Made by a program: the position numbers and the translations under genes
Notes under the pieces: model-generated
Told to the model about the DNA's origin: nothing
Seen by the model: the letters and a program-made list of their open reading frames with translations, nothing else
Database searches by the model: none
From: a virus
IMG/VR virus record: IMGVR_UViG_3300021438_000054
Span: 1 to 30,851 of that record
DNA: 30,851 bases
Reading direction: 5' to 3' (one strand)
In this document: piece by piece, positions 71 through 30,762 of the stretch
How the letters are laid out: every line of letters begins with the position of its first letter
How positions within the stretch are numbered: the first letter of the stretch is position 1

Positions 71-457
71 TTATGAGAGAGCATGTGTTGTTGCTGCGGT
101 CTTTGCACTGTGGTGTTGATGACAGAGTGCTTGCAGGTTGGTGACGTCGTAGCCTCGTGGTCCGTGTGGGCCTTGGTTGTCTATGTGGTCTACGTCTGTG
201 GCGTCACGTGTGCAACCTACGACGATGCAGGTTGGGTGTGACTGTAGGAATGTTGCGCGAAACTTTTGCCAACGTGTGTCGTACCCGCGTTGTGCGGAGC
301 TGGGACGTTTGCCTTTGAGTTCGCGTGGTTTGTGTTCGGCGCACCATGATTCTTTGGTGAGCTCTGGGCATCCGGCTTTCGCGCAGACGCGGAATGTTTT
401 AGCCAGTGAATGCGCCGGTGCTGTAGTTGTATCCGTTGTCGGACACTTGCTCTGCAA
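71..457 (-). CDS. HNH endonuclease, terminase-associated
   Basis: Small HNH nuclease of up to 128 aa. A zinc-knuckle-like N-terminus (CAKAGC, then WCAEH) is followed by the HNH core: CIVVGC, then DVDHIDNQGP, then NLQALCHQHHSAK. In HK97-type phages an HNH protein encoded beside the terminase is needed for cos cleavage (gp74-like). Here it is the last gene of the leftward early operon, and on the circular map it directly precedes TerS. The start is uncertain: the longest frame begins at a TTG at 457 inside the preceding 40-aa gene, while the conserved part begins near AKTFRVC (about 403), where only a CTG is available. No good ribosome site is seen for either. Confidence 0.85.
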   Translation of the reverse strand: MQSKCPTTDTTTAPAHSLAKTFRVCAKAGCPELTKESWCAEHKPRELKGKRPSSAQRGYDTRWQKFRATFLQSHPTCIVVGCTRDATDVDHIDNQGPHGPRGYDVTNLQALCHQHHSAKTAATTHALS

Positions 458-521
458 CCTGCTCGGTCTTGCCCTTGGGTGCAGGTGTCTCGACTGTGGG
501 AGTGTCGGTGTTGTCAGCCAT
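399..521 (-). CDS. small acidic protein of unknown function (40 aa)
   Basis: ATG at 521 preceded by a strong AGGAAGG ribosome site at good spacing. It encodes 40 residues beginning MADNTDTPTVETPAPKGK and ending YNYSTGAFTG. The sequence is rich in Thr, Pro, Asp and Glu and is probably disordered. It overlaps the upstream part of the HNH frame, so the two may be translationally coupled. No family is recognised. The clear ribosome site and its position right after the RNA-like element are the reasons to call it. The function is unknown. Confidence 0.55.
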   Translation of the reverse strand: MADNTDTPTVETPAPKGKTEQVAEQVSDNGYNYSTGAFTG

Positions 522-904
522 GATTGGCCTTCCTGTTAAGTGGTTGGGGGAAGCTGTGGGGCAGGTGAGGCGACGTCCTGCCCTACGTCGAACCGTTGGC
601 CGCGGTTCCCCTGTCGAGTCCTCTCGGCAGGTGGCCTATTGGCGAGTGTCCTCCTGATCGGCGTCCCGAGAGTAACTCGCAGTGGATGACGAGGGAATCG
701 AACCCTCGTCCCACCAATTCCGACGTGCGGCTTTGATTGATGGTCGACTACCGTGAATCACCCAGAGTGTCCCTGGCAGGGGTGTGACGATGGCGAGAAG
801 CAGGTCGGAGAGGAATCCGCCGCTGACACGACAGTTGTCTTAGAAAATATGTGCGCCTGTTTCGTTGGCCACACATGCCAGGGAATGAGAGAAGCCTCGA
901 CGCC
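522..904. other. gene-poor interval around the TLS-like RNA
   Basis: This 383-base stretch holds the structured RNA at 683-763 and otherwise no convincing gene. A 68-residue frame at 748-954 (minus) runs through the RNA and the end of the next gene and looks like a shadow. At 634-655 an AGGAGG motif precedes an open minus frame without an acceptable start codon. GC-rich short inverted repeats occur at about 609-630 (CCTG...CAGG). No clear promoter was recognised. Confidence 0.4.
683..763 (-). ncRNA. tmRNA-like tRNA-like structure (mini TLS)
   Basis: Read on the minus strand from 763 to 683. A 7-bp acceptor stem pairs GGGTGAT (763-757) with GTCATCC (690-684), including a G3-U70 wobble and discriminator A73 (683), which are the alanine identity elements. 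A perfect T-arm GAGGG-TTCGATT-CCCTC lies at 707-691. There is no canonical D-stem; in its place ACGGTAGTCGAC closely resembles the actinobacterial tmRNA D-loop ACGGTTTCGAC. In the anticodon-arm position an 8-bp helix CCATCAAT/ATTGGTGG (743-736 with 718-711) encloses a 17-nt loop, like P2 of tmRNA. CCA is not encoded. No mRNA-like part or tag is present within the 81 nt. Structure is read by eye; expression and charging are inference. Confidence 0.55.
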
Positions 905-11160: not shown

Positions 11161-12312
11161 ATGACCAGACCGCAACTGCCCTTGGAGACATGGGGCAAGA
11201 TAACGCGACTCACGCTGGACGGTAAACCCGCAGCGCGTGCGTCATACCGTGACAGCGACGGAGTGACCCGGCGAATCCAACGTGTCGGGCGCACTCATGC
11301 CGATGCCGAGCGCAATCTTTTGGAAGCTCTCCGCGCTCGTCTGGCACCGACGTTTGAAGACCTCACGAGCCAATCGACAGTGCTCGAAGCCATCACCAGC
11401 TACCTCGGTTCGGTAACTCACTTGAGCGACTCAACGTTGAACGTGTACCGAAACGCCACGAAGAGCATTGTCGCCGGAGGGTTTGGATCCGTATTGCTGC
11501 GAGAAGTGACCGTCCCCCGATGTGAACGCTTCTTGAAGGCCGTCGGTGAGAACAACGGCAAGTCTCAAGCCAAGACCGTCCGCACCATCCTCAACAACGC
11601 GCTCACCGAAGCTGTGCGCCTCGGAGCGATACCGTTCAACCCGGTCAGTGCCACCACAGTCCCCCAGCCGGAAAAGAAACCCATTAAGGCACCGTCGCTC
11701 ATGGCCGTGCGCGAAATCCGGGCACTGATTCGCCGTCACGATGAAGGAACCGACAAGCGCGGTCAAGCACGAGTCAGCGACATCGCCGACCTTGTGGATC
11801 TATACGCTGCAACCGGTGCCCGAACGTCCGAGCTACTCGCCCTGGTCTGGGAAGACATCGACCTCAACAGTTCCCCAGCACGGTTGACCATCAACAAGAC
11901 TTTGGTCATTGGAACCGACGGGAAACTCAAGGTGCAAGACCACCCGAAGACAAGCCGTGGCATCCGTGCGCTCAAACTGCCCCAGTCGGCCGCCGACATG
12001 CTCACATCCCGACGCATCAAGTCACACAGTGAAATCGTGTTCCCATCGAGCACCAACACATATCGCTGGCCACACAACCTGCGACGCATCTGGAGGGAAG
12101 CTCTCGAAGGTACGCCGTACGACTCATGGACGCCGCGCGACTTCCGCAAGGCAGTAGCGACCCTCGTAAAAGAGGAAATGGGCATCGAAGCTGCACGCGA
12201 TCAGCTTGGCCACACGAGCGAGAAAATGACCATCGGGCATTACATTCAGCCCACTCACGAGGGTCCCGACGCGACGGTCACGCTGGAGCAAATGTTTGAA
12301 AAAGGTGAGTAA
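11161..12312 (+). CDS. int: tyrosine integrase
   Basis: 383-aa phage integrase. An N-terminal arm-binding region (1-65) is followed by the SAM-like core-binding domain (about 72-160) and catalytic domain (about 175-375). Catalytic residues by motif: R221 in ATGARTSELL, K263 in HPKTSRGIRALKLP, R329 in WTPRDFRKAVATL, H351 in QLGHTSEKM and Y361 in GHYIQP. The residue equivalent to the first His of HxxR is R326 (R-D-F-R). AGGAA lies before the ATG at good spacing. The stop codon lies inside the first arm repeat of attP, directly beside the tRNA-like core, so the gene and its site form one cassette. Confidence 0.95.
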   Translation: MTRPQLPLETWGKITRLTLDGKPAARASYRDSDGVTRRIQRVGRTHADAERNLLEALRARLAPTFEDLTSQSTVLEAITSYLGSVTHLSDSTLNVYRNATKSIVAGGFGSVLLREVTVPRCERFLKAVGENNGKSQAKTVRTILNNALTEAVRLGAIPFNPVSATTVPQPEKKPIKAPSLMAVREIRALIRRHDEGTDKRGQARVSDIADLVDLYAATGARTSELLALVWEDIDLNSSPARLTINKTLVIGTDGKLKVQDHPKTSRGIRALKLPQSAADMLTSRRIKSHSEIVFPSSTNTYRWPHNLRRIWREALEGTPYDSWTPRDFRKAVATLVKEEMGIEAARDQLGHTSEKMTIGHYIQPTHEGPDATVTLEQMFEKGE

Positions 12313-12632: not shown

Positions 12633-13301
12633 ATGGCACACCTTGTTTGGAAAGATTCCAACAACAACACACTGATTCAAGGAGTTGGCGAATCTCACCG
12701 GTTGGTCGAATGGAAGCGCATCCTGCCGAAATCGTTAGACGGCAAAGAGTACAGAGAAAGACTTGACGTTCAACTGGTAGCAGAGCCCACTAATGCTGTC
12801 GACAAAACGGCCGTCATGATGTTTGCAAAAGGGCAACATGTTGGTTACCTTCCCCGCAACGTTGCTGCCGTGCTTTTTGACCATGTTATGAGTGCGACAA
12901 AAAACGAAGACACGGTGGCGGTGCCTGGGTCAATTTGGGCCGTGAAGAGATCTGATGGGCTTAAAGCAAACGTGTCAGTATTCATGCCTGATGATTTGCT
13001 TGAGGGCATTGATTTCGACTATTCAAGTGAACCTGTGTACACAACGGCCGCACCGTCAACACCCAAAAAGAGCCCGGCGTCCGTATTGGCAATTTGGGGT
13101 CTTATTTTGGCGGGCATCACATTGCTGGGGTCGGGAGCGGGTTTTGGAACAATTCTTGTCGGCATTGCGTCATTGGTCGTGAATTATGTTTGGTATTCGA
13201 AAAGTGCAACGTCAAAAATTGTTCCGCTTGTAGCACTTGGCGCAACGGGGCTCGGACTTTTGCTGGGCATCATTTTTGGCATTATCAAAGCAGCGTCTTA
13301 A
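12633..13301 (+). CDS. HIRAN-domain membrane protein (222 aa)
   Basis: The N-terminal domain (about 10-115) has the HIRAN pattern: VAEPTNAVDKTAVMMFAKGQ followed by HVGYLPRNVAAVLFDHV. A Pro/Thr-rich linker (about 133-150) is followed by three hydrophobic segments: VLAIWGLILAGITLLGSGAG, TILVGIASLVVNYVWY and VPLVALGATGLGLLLGIIFG. HIRAN domains bind single-stranded DNA ends in eukaryotic HLTF, but the role of membrane-tethered forms is unknown. GAGGGGAAG precedes the ATG. It is the only plus gene right of attP and would lie at the prophage end, a usual site for cargo expressed in lysogens. A host-defence or exclusion role is inference. Confidence 0.75.
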   Translation: MAHLVWKDSNNNTLIQGVGESHRLVEWKRILPKSLDGKEYRERLDVQLVAEPTNAVDKTAVMMFAKGQHVGYLPRNVAAVLFDHVMSATKNEDTVAVPGSIWAVKRSDGLKANVSVFMPDDLLEGIDFDYSSEPVYTTAAPSTPKKSPASVLAIWGLILAGITLLGSGAGFGTILVGIASLVVNYVWYSKSATSKIVPLVALGATGLGLLLGIIFGIIKAAS

Positions 13302-13302
13302 G

Positions 13303-13355
13303 CAAAAGAAACGCCCCCCAGCCGGTATTTCGGCCGAGGGGCGTTTAGCTTTTGT
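13303..13355. terminator. bidirectional intrinsic terminator
   Basis: AAACGCCCC (13309-13317) pairs with GGGGCGTTT (13338-13346), with an inner GCCG/CGGC stem. It is flanked by A-rich sequence on the left and T-rich sequence on the right (AGCTTTTGTTT), so it can stop both the HIRAN transcript and the leftward late operon, which converge here. Confidence 0.85.
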
Positions 13356-13359
13356 TTAG

Positions 13360-13443
13360 TTACTGACAGGACTCACACTGGAGAAAATCCATCGGATCCA
13401 CGGGAACCGAGTACCCGCCAACATTGTCTTTTTCTGTACTCAC
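13360..13443 (-). CDS. tiny protein, last ORF of the late operon (27 aa)
   Basis: The GTG at 13443 overlaps the stop of the XhlA-like gene (GTGA). It encodes MSTEKDNVGGYSVPVDPMD followed by FLQCESCQ. The PVDPMDxLQCESCQ ending looks conserved-type rather than random, and a CxxC pair sits at the very end. It may be a lysis accessory. It is the last gene before the terminator. Confidence 0.5.
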   Translation of the reverse strand: MSTEKDNVGGYSVPVDPMDFLQCESCQ

Positions 13444-28707: not shown

Positions 28708-30327
28708 CTAGAATCCTGCGACTTTGAATTTCTTCTTTTGAACATGACCCGACGCGATTACGTCACCCCGCGCTTCATACGCGAGCACCGCAGTCATGGC
28801 GATGTCAATCTTGCGCGGAGACTTGTCGCGCTCTTTACGGATCACAACACCAGACCGGGTTTGTTTCCGTTTGGCGTTAGCAATATGCCGAGACATTGTC
28901 TCGTTGCCGTCATGCCACAACTGACCAGTGATGACGGCCGTGTGAAAACGTTCAAGCGCGGCCACAATGGCACGCTCACGGTTTGTCCACCACTCCACGA
29001 CAATTTTCTCGCCGTGTTCATTCGCCCAACGGCCGACAATGTCTTGCCAGTACGCCGGGTCGCAATACATGCGGGCGACATCAAAATCTTTGAATGCTTG
29101 AGCGAGCACCGCATCAACTTCACCGACAGGGACTTCCCACTCGGCGGCGGCATCCGCATCGGCAGGTGATTCCCACACTCCCAAAAGGAAAAGGGCACCA
29201 TCATCAATCCGGCACGCAACCAAGGCCGTGGAGTCATCGCGGAGCGAACCGTCGAAACCGATTGTGATGCGGTCACCCGGTTCAAGCTTTAGATCCGGGT
29301 TGGCGCGTTCATCCCACGACTTTGGGTCAATCCACGAGTCCGACGCTGCAACAACGCGATTGCCGAAAAACCGTTCCGCCTGGGCGACATCACGCTCAAT
29401 CAGGTCATGCGCTTCAGCTTCAATCGCATCCAAGTCAACATGGCCACCGTTTTGTTTCAACGCTTCGCCATACACAATTTGGTGAATCTTGCGACGCTCA
29501 ACTTTGTTTCGGTACGACAAGTTCGACGGCGGCTGTTTGAAATGCCGGTACACGTCCACCGAGTTTGATTCGAACTGCTGCTGGGCGACGGAGTTCTCCG
29601 ACGGGTCCCAGGCGTTCGACGTCAACGAGGCACGCCCACCCATACCGGCCAGTCCGCGAAACTGCGTATCCGCAACTTTCGACATTTGATTCTGGCGAGT
29701 CCACAACCCGACCTCGTCCTGTGGCACGAACGTCACACGCTGACCCAGACGGGACTGCGCAGACGAAGTCACAGTGTCAATGCGCCCACCGCCAGGCAGA
29801 CGAATGAACTCTTCACCGGTCTTCGTAATCAAGTCAGCCAACGGGCCGAACTCAATCATCGGACGAAGCACACCGTAGATGTTGTCGGTCTGCTCTTCGG
29901 ACAATGCGGTGATCTGAATGAGTGGTGTCGGCCACGGCATCCCCATCGGTTCGCCGGGCTCATAGTCGTACACCCACCCGCATCGGCATCCATGTTGACG
30001 GCAGTCATACACGTCACCGGCGGAAGCCCACCCAGCAAACAACGCCGGACCCACAGCTTCCAAACAAACATGCGCGGCCGTCATTGGACCCTTGCCCAAT
30101 TTCTGCGGACCAATCAACATGCCACGGCGATAAACAAACGCCGGACCCAACACTGGGTCGGCAGCGTCAAACTCTACGTCCCCGCGAACAAGGTAAAAGT
30201 TTGAAAAGTATTCGAGCTGGTAATCGTACAAACGAAACTCACGCCCACGATTGAAACCATCCGGAACAACACAATGACGCTCAATCCACTCCAACGCAAC
30301 GGCCAGAGTTTGATTCTCACGCCCCAT
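28708..30327 (-). CDS. terL: terminase large subunit (539 aa)
   Basis: ATPase domain: Walker A GPQKLGKGPMTA (about 73-84) and Walker B VTFVPQDEVGLW with D/E at about 204-205. The nuclease domain begins GDRITIGFDGSLRDDSTALV (about 338), with further acids in YCDPAYWQDI and IDIAMTAVLAYEAR. An inserted Cys-rich loop (YDCRQHGCRCGW) lies between. It drives DNA packaging and makes the cos cut with TerS and the HNH protein. ATG at 30327 overlaps TerS by 11 bases; a TTG at 30333 is the longer option. Confidence 0.95.
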   Translation of the reverse strand: MGRENQTLAVALEWIERHCVVPDGFNRGREFRLYDYQLEYFSNFYLVRGDVEFDAADPVLGPAFVYRRGMLIGPQKLGKGPMTAAHVCLEAVGPALFAGWASAGDVYDCRQHGCRCGWVYDYEPGEPMGMPWPTPLIQITALSEEQTDNIYGVLRPMIEFGPLADLITKTGEEFIRLPGGGRIDTVTSSAQSRLGQRVTFVPQDEVGLWTRQNQMSKVADTQFRGLAGMGGRASLTSNAWDPSENSVAQQQFESNSVDVYRHFKQPPSNLSYRNKVERRKIHQIVYGEALKQNGGHVDLDAIEAEAHDLIERDVAQAERFFGNRVVAASDSWIDPKSWDERANPDLKLEPGDRITIGFDGSLRDDSTALVACRIDDGALFLLGVWESPADADAAAEWEVPVGEVDAVLAQAFKDFDVARMYCDPAYWQDIVGRWANEHGEKIVVEWWTNRERAIVAALERFHTAVITGQLWHDGNETMSRHIANAKRKQTRSGVVIRKERDKSPRKIDIAMTAVLAYEARGDVIASGHVQKKKFKVAGF

Positions 30328-30748
30328 GAGCAAGCTTCAAACGGTCACGAACGCTAGACGCCACAACCGGTGCAGACTCCCGACGCGCAGCAACTTCGTC
30401 GTCCGCCACTTTCACACGAGCACGAAACATCGACGGCAAAGTCAACAACAGCTGATCCATCTGCTTCGCAACAAGAACGCCCAACGTCACAGGCGCATCC
30501 GGCAACTCCACCTCGGCAAGACGTCGAACAAACAACGCCACTTCCAGCTCCTGTGAGTTCTTCTCCCACAAAATTGCTTGCGGCTTCGCCCACAATGACT
30601 CCCAAAGTTCAGACTCGCGGTCAGAAAAACCCGTCAACGGCCAGCCCGGTGCAACACCAGTGCGACCACCAGACGGCAGCGAAACCCAACCGGCATCGTC
30701 CTTACGGTCACGACGCAAAGCATTCGGATCAGGTGCAGGACCAGGCAT
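30317..30748 (-). CDS. terS: terminase small subunit (143 aa)
   Basis: The ATG at 30748 (MPGPAPDPNALRRDRKDDAG) has AAGGAG at 7 nt, while the ATG at 30754 lies only one base from it, so 30748 is chosen. The N-terminus is disordered and basic; the helical core is WESLWAKPQAILWEKNSQEL, EVALFVRRLAEVELPDA and KQMDQLLLTLPSMFRARV. This is the pattern of actinophage TerS proteins. It recognises the packaging site. The first gene of the late operon. Confidence 0.85.
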   Translation of the reverse strand: MPGPAPDPNALRRDRKDDAGWVSLPSGGRTGVAPGWPLTGFSDRESELWESLWAKPQAILWEKNSQELEVALFVRRLAEVELPDAPVTLGVLVAKQMDQLLLTLPSMFRARVKVADDEVAARRESAPVVASSVRDRLKLAHGA

Positions 30749-30762
30749 GTTCATACTCCTTC

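Follow-up and report, generated by a model that had tools for sequence, protein, structure and literature searches.

Background

Transfer-messenger RNA (tmRNA) reduced to little more than its tRNA-like domain (TLD) has been described in a single phage, mycobacteriophage DS6A, whose "TLD only" tmRNA (Mao et al. 2009; tmRNA Website 11587) was tested and, according to two later papers, inhibits tmRNA in E. coli (PMC4131195, PMC11915505). tmRNAs without a coding region are also found in jakobid mitochondria and in the plastids of Mallomonadaceae (PMC11915505). Reviews state that alanyl-tRNA synthetase (AlaRS) recognises the G3-U70 pair and the discriminator A of the TLD, that contacts between D-loop and T-loop are needed for SmpB binding, and that SmpB takes the position of the anticodon arm, with P2 (H2) pointing out like a long variable arm; AlaRS, EF-Tu and SmpB all bind the TLD (PMC3968760). 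The TLD crystallised with SmpB was a laboratory construct in which the 5' 25 nt and 3' 34 nt of tmRNA were joined by a UUCG loop (PMC3929946).

Here we examine an 81-nt element of this kind in a phage, found in IMG/VR record IMGVR_UViG_3300021438_000054, the whole of which (30,851 bases, hereafter the window) was analysed. The initial annotation had described it as an isolated tmRNA-like tRNA domain with alanine identity elements and no mRNA-like domain (MLD), of a kind that could not be named, and had proposed that it could be charged with alanine, act as a decoy or be a remnant. Its description is confirmed and its interpretation supported, with two corrections: such an RNA can be named, as shown by DS6A, and it is not isolated but belongs to a large viral family.

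Results and discussion

Structure of the element

The element lies on the minus strand and reads, 5' to 3' from 763 to 683, GGGTGAT TCACGGTAGTCGAC CATCAAT CAAAGCCGCACGTCGGA ATTGGTG GGAC GAGGG TTCGATT CCCTC GTCATCC A, followed by CTG. Its parts and the surrounding genes are as follows.

683 to 763, minus strand: MLD-less tmRNA (tRNA-like domain only), 81 nt from G1 to A73
757 to 763, minus strand: 5' acceptor strand GGGTGAT (G1-U7), including G3 of the G3-U70 pair
743 to 756, minus strand: D-segment TCACGGTAGTCGAC, without D-stem, matching tmRNA GGNTTCGAC
711 to 743, minus strand: P2 helix of 8 bp (C21-G53 plus 7), capped by a 17-nt loop (735 to 719)
720 to 730, minus strand: cap hairpin CCG-CACGT-CGG inside the loop, preceded by CAAAG
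691 to 707, minus strand: T-arm GAGGG TTCGATT CCCTC
683 to 690, minus strand: 3' acceptor strand GTCATCC (U70) and discriminator A73
402 to 521, minus strand: small ORF (40 aa, MADNTDTP...) just downstream of the element, with AGGAAGG before it
71 to 457, minus strand: HNH endonuclease gene (PHROG HNH, 84.5 bits)
30317 to 30754, minus strand: likely small terminase gene (TerS), assigned by position and not by a family search
28708 to 30333, minus strand: large terminase gene (TerL; PHROG terminase, 463.8 bits)

By direct reading, all 7 acceptor pairs form, including G3-U70 (pair 7-66 is U-G), as do all 5 pairs of the T-stem, which carries a TTCGATT loop in agreement with the TTCRANN of tmRNA. 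The D-segment (ACGGTAGTCGAC, against the stemless GGNNTCGAC of tmRNA) has no D-stem, and the P2 helix stands in place of an anticodon arm. Every feature listed in the initial annotation is present, but it did not note that the 17-nt loop holds a CCG/CGG hairpin (AAAGCCG...CGGA), which is conserved and shared by most of the family. CCA is not encoded. There is no MLD with tag reading frame and pseudoknots: only 17 nt separate the P2 strands, and no stop codon was seen, by reading, in any frame of the P2-loop-P2 segment. A 15-nt inverted repeat (770-784 and 870-884; TCCCTGGCAGGGGTG / CACACATGCCAGGGA) lies just upstream of the element on the minus strand. No promoter-like site was found near the element.

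ARAGORN finds no tRNA and misses the element, as does Rfam at gathering threshold. However, the Rfam tmRNA model (RF00023) run over the whole record gives a single match, exactly here and end to end of the model, at 32.9 bits (E 1.9e-13), below the 47-bit gathering score; other family members tested reach 51.6-73.9 bits. A strict structure descriptor matched once in the real window and not in any of 150 dinucleotide shuffles. MFE folding of the 82-mer alone was uninformative, as it does not give the cloverleaf as its best structure; it is the comparative evidence that does.

A large family of MLD-less tmRNAs in viruses

To search for relatives by structure, we used a pattern specifying only TCGAC, GGAC and a tmRNA-type T-arm, set 15-45 nt apart (too close for a normal tmRNA), and a second, tighter pattern. 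Of 173 such loci, 148 carry a complete element with a 7/7 acceptor, representing 97 distinct sequences. Although neither pattern nor descriptor asked for them, G3-U70 and A73 occur in 148/148 viral contigs and C74 in 140/148, whereas CCA is encoded in 21/148. The GG...TCGAC of the D-segment is shared across the family. In 56 non-redundant members, the first six P2 pairs, which were not imposed by pattern or descriptor, form in 86-100% of cases against 40-49% when partners are shuffled, with four to six pair types each. No GCN...stop frame is shared that could represent a hidden tag: 16 of 74 members have one, and 17 of 74 have no stop codon in any frame of the segment. Longer variants of 95 nt (contig L043, 11908-12002, and contig L056, 11235-11329), with a 47-nt middle and an extended D-segment, possibly form a second subtype.

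A covariance model (R1) built from 12 gap-free members without the window scores the window's element at 48.9 bits (E 1.3e-10), against 28.5 bits at most for tRNAs in the same search; covariance models assign it to tmRNA and to no other class. A second model (R2) gives it 63 bits, the window being among its 86 training sequences. In the 86-sequence alignment (85 distinct), 19 of 22 pairs change on both sides, 96.7% of cells pair, and the covariation score is 0.72 against 0.14 (shuffled) and 0.06-0.10 (slid). This alignment was fitted to the model and leans towards it, which is not the case for the P2 test above. G3-U70 is present in 85/85 aligned sequences, the three pairs of the cap hairpin all show changes on both sides (93% paired), and an eighth, basal P2 pair outside the model is C-G in 81 and U-A in 5.

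Named isolates carrying the element include Streptomyces phages of the StarPlatinum/Karimac group (more than 30 records with full-length matches), GiJojo, LuckySocke, Alone3, BRock, pSt2308, Pontimonas phage phiPsal1 and Stenotrophomonas virus Jojan60. A divergent candidate (41.2 bits with R2) in Stenotrophomonas phage vB_Sm_QDWS359 (961-1042 of contig L128) overlaps an annotated hypothetical protein on the other strand. The family is mostly missed by ARAGORN, and in the isolate records opened the element is unannotated or lies under a hypothetical protein; the announcement of BE2 phages CeilingFan and Mugiwara reports 44 tRNAs and one tmRNA, though CeilingFan also gives a full-length match to the short form. 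The tight pattern gave only four stretches in 84,980 bacterial and archaeal genomes: two are permuted tmRNAs (the Microvirga hits), one lies in a contig with phage head genes and one in a Mycobacterium MAG of unknown context. R1 hits 3 of 247 genomes of the class, one of them the seed. The element is thus essentially viral. Most member contigs (120 of 148) show no other tRNA on the stretch examined, so it is not merely part of tRNA arrays, and SmpB was found in 0 of 40 phage records.

Two records carry a separate full tmRNA as well as the short form. Streptomyces phage StarPlatinum (MH576965) has the unannotated MLD-less tmRNA at 87769-87849 and a full tmRNA with tag ANSNVASAYALAA at 99548-99829. 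Viral record G005 (L159, L160) has a full-length tmRNA-like hit of 392 nt, for which ARAGORN proposes an odd tag, SPEYRIRLLTNTKW.

Conservation in relatives of the window's phage

The window encodes a large terminase (best isolate match 49%, to a Streptomyces phage), a minor tail protein, an endolysin, an integrase (11161-12312), a RecE-like nuclease and an HNH endonuclease, with a HIRAN-domain protein (12633-13301, plus strand) next to the integrase. The likely small terminase sits at the right end and HNH at the left; as these two are neighbours in relatives, where the TerS homologues next to TerL are 51-68% identical, the record is probably a near-complete genome cut near the packaging site.

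Three contigs with 77-78% identical TerL carry the element in the same place: upstream of HNH-TerS-TerL in L171 (1480-1558) and L166 (343-421), and upstream of TerS-TerL in L168 (53-131). In the window, the distance from element to TerL across the ends is about 1.2 kb, as in L171. Relative to the window, acceptor pairs 6-67 and 7-66, P2 and the T-arm differ by compensatory changes. Presence is nevertheless patchy, as other TerL relatives have no detectable copy even with R2. The more distant, exonuclease-based relatives L133 and L142 carry a divergent copy in a different place, between TerL and portal, so that position is conserved only among the closest relatives. Close relatives carry UCGCU or UUAGAU instead of UCGAC in the D-segment; those with UUAGAT or UCGCT were missed by the first descriptor and found by the covariance model. 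The window (13360-13443, minus strand) and L133 (3776-3856) also share a tiny conserved ORF of 26-27 aa ending in DPMD-LQC-SCQ (VSTEKDNVGGYSVPVDPMDFLQCESCQ; MNNESVNGYPIPPVDPMDLLQCDSCQ), with 80% DNA identity over 60 nt. In L133 the last G of its stop codon is the first base of the tmRNA-like element, while in the window it is followed by a strong terminator-like hairpin (13303-13345, minus strand; AACGCCCCTCGGCCG...CGGCTGGGGGGCGTTTCTTTT) ahead of the convergent integrase region.

Possible function

The best explanation, to which we give a probability of roughly 0.55 in the absence of expression, charging or binding data, is that the element is a functional phage-encoded TLD that acts as an alanylated, SmpB-binding competitor of host tmRNA. 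Its transcript would be processed like a tRNA, receive CCA, be charged with alanine by host AlaRS through G3-U70 and A73, and bind host SmpB and EF-Tu through the elbow. It would then occupy SmpB and stalled ribosomes in place of host tmRNA, the nascent chain being able to receive alanine but no degradation tag and no stop codon, so that the net effect would be to damp or alter host trans-translation during infection or lysogeny. This reading is supported by the covariation, the invariant alanine identity elements, the conservation in place in close relatives, the match in layout with the TLD fragment crystallised with SmpB, and the inhibition reported second-hand for DS6A. The coexistence with a full tmRNA in StarPlatinum and G005 is awkward for a plain inhibitor, however, and the altered D-segments of close relatives mean that SmpB binding may differ among them.

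The chief rival, possible but less likely, is rescue without tagging, in which the charged RNA and SmpB enter stalled ribosomes, add one or several alanines to the nascent chain and help free the ribosome or mark the chain, sparing phage proteins the degradation tag. TLD fragment plus SmpB makes polyalanine in vitro without mRNA (Shimizu and Ueda 2006, cited in PMC3929946), mitochondrial tmRNAs lacking a tag frame are conserved with SmpB and thought to help with incomplete mRNAs (PMC11915505), and coexistence with a full tmRNA in two phages fits a distinct role; on the other hand, there is no obvious release step without a stop codon, and the only tested phage example inhibits. In its boldest form, which we regard as doubtful although not excluded, phages would have a widespread dedicated small RNA that, with host SmpB, makes ribosome rescue end in alanine addition instead of tagging, distinct from and sometimes coexisting with the phage's own full tmRNA.

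It seems unlikely that the element is a decoy working independently of SmpB, on AlaRS, EF-Tu or a host tRNA-cutting or tRNA-modifying defence enzyme. The invariant G3-U70 and A73 would recruit AlaRS, the D-segment is altered in some relatives, and an RNA without anticodon would presumably resist anticodon nucleases, but the D-segment GG...UCGAC and P2, features shared with tmRNA rather than tRNA-Ala, are kept in most members. Decay from a phage or host tmRNA in this particular phage is less likely still: the element is in the lowest-scoring tier of the family, with a D-segment off consensus, a U7-G66 wobble and a patchy occurrence in relatives, yet acceptor, P2, cap and T-arm are all intact, and the compensatory changes in syntenic relatives disfavour a remnant. 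Half copies occur beside integrase genes (Gordonia phage Ruthy, prophiGD05-1), but an attachment-site copy of the 3' end of host tmRNA was rejected because the element has both the 5' and 3' halves and the integrase of this phage is about 10 kb away.

Comparison with known tmRNAs

TLD-only tmRNA was already known, from one phage and from organelles. What appears undescribed, in the papers searched, is that it forms a broad, structurally conserved viral family with its own cap hairpin. Like the DS6A RNA, the element is a phage-borne tmRNA reduced to little more than the TLD. The jakobid mitochondrial and Mallomonadaceae plastid tmRNAs are organellar, whereas the family described here is viral and has its own conserved cap hairpin. 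With the full-length tmRNAs of phages such as Streptomyces phages Jada and StarPlatinum, the element shares the acceptor with G3-U70, the D-segment, the base of P2 and the T-arm. It is not a tRNA-Ala, having neither D-stem nor anticodon arm. With the acceptor piece of permuted two-piece tmRNAs (RF01849-51, RF04321) it shares the T-arm and 3' acceptor sequence, but its order is not permuted, as the 5' acceptor precedes and pairs 7/7 with the 3' acceptor; a weak permuted-model hit (13.5 bits) stretching to window position 587 fails on acceptor order. These phage RNAs are natural versions of the truncated TLD used in structural work.
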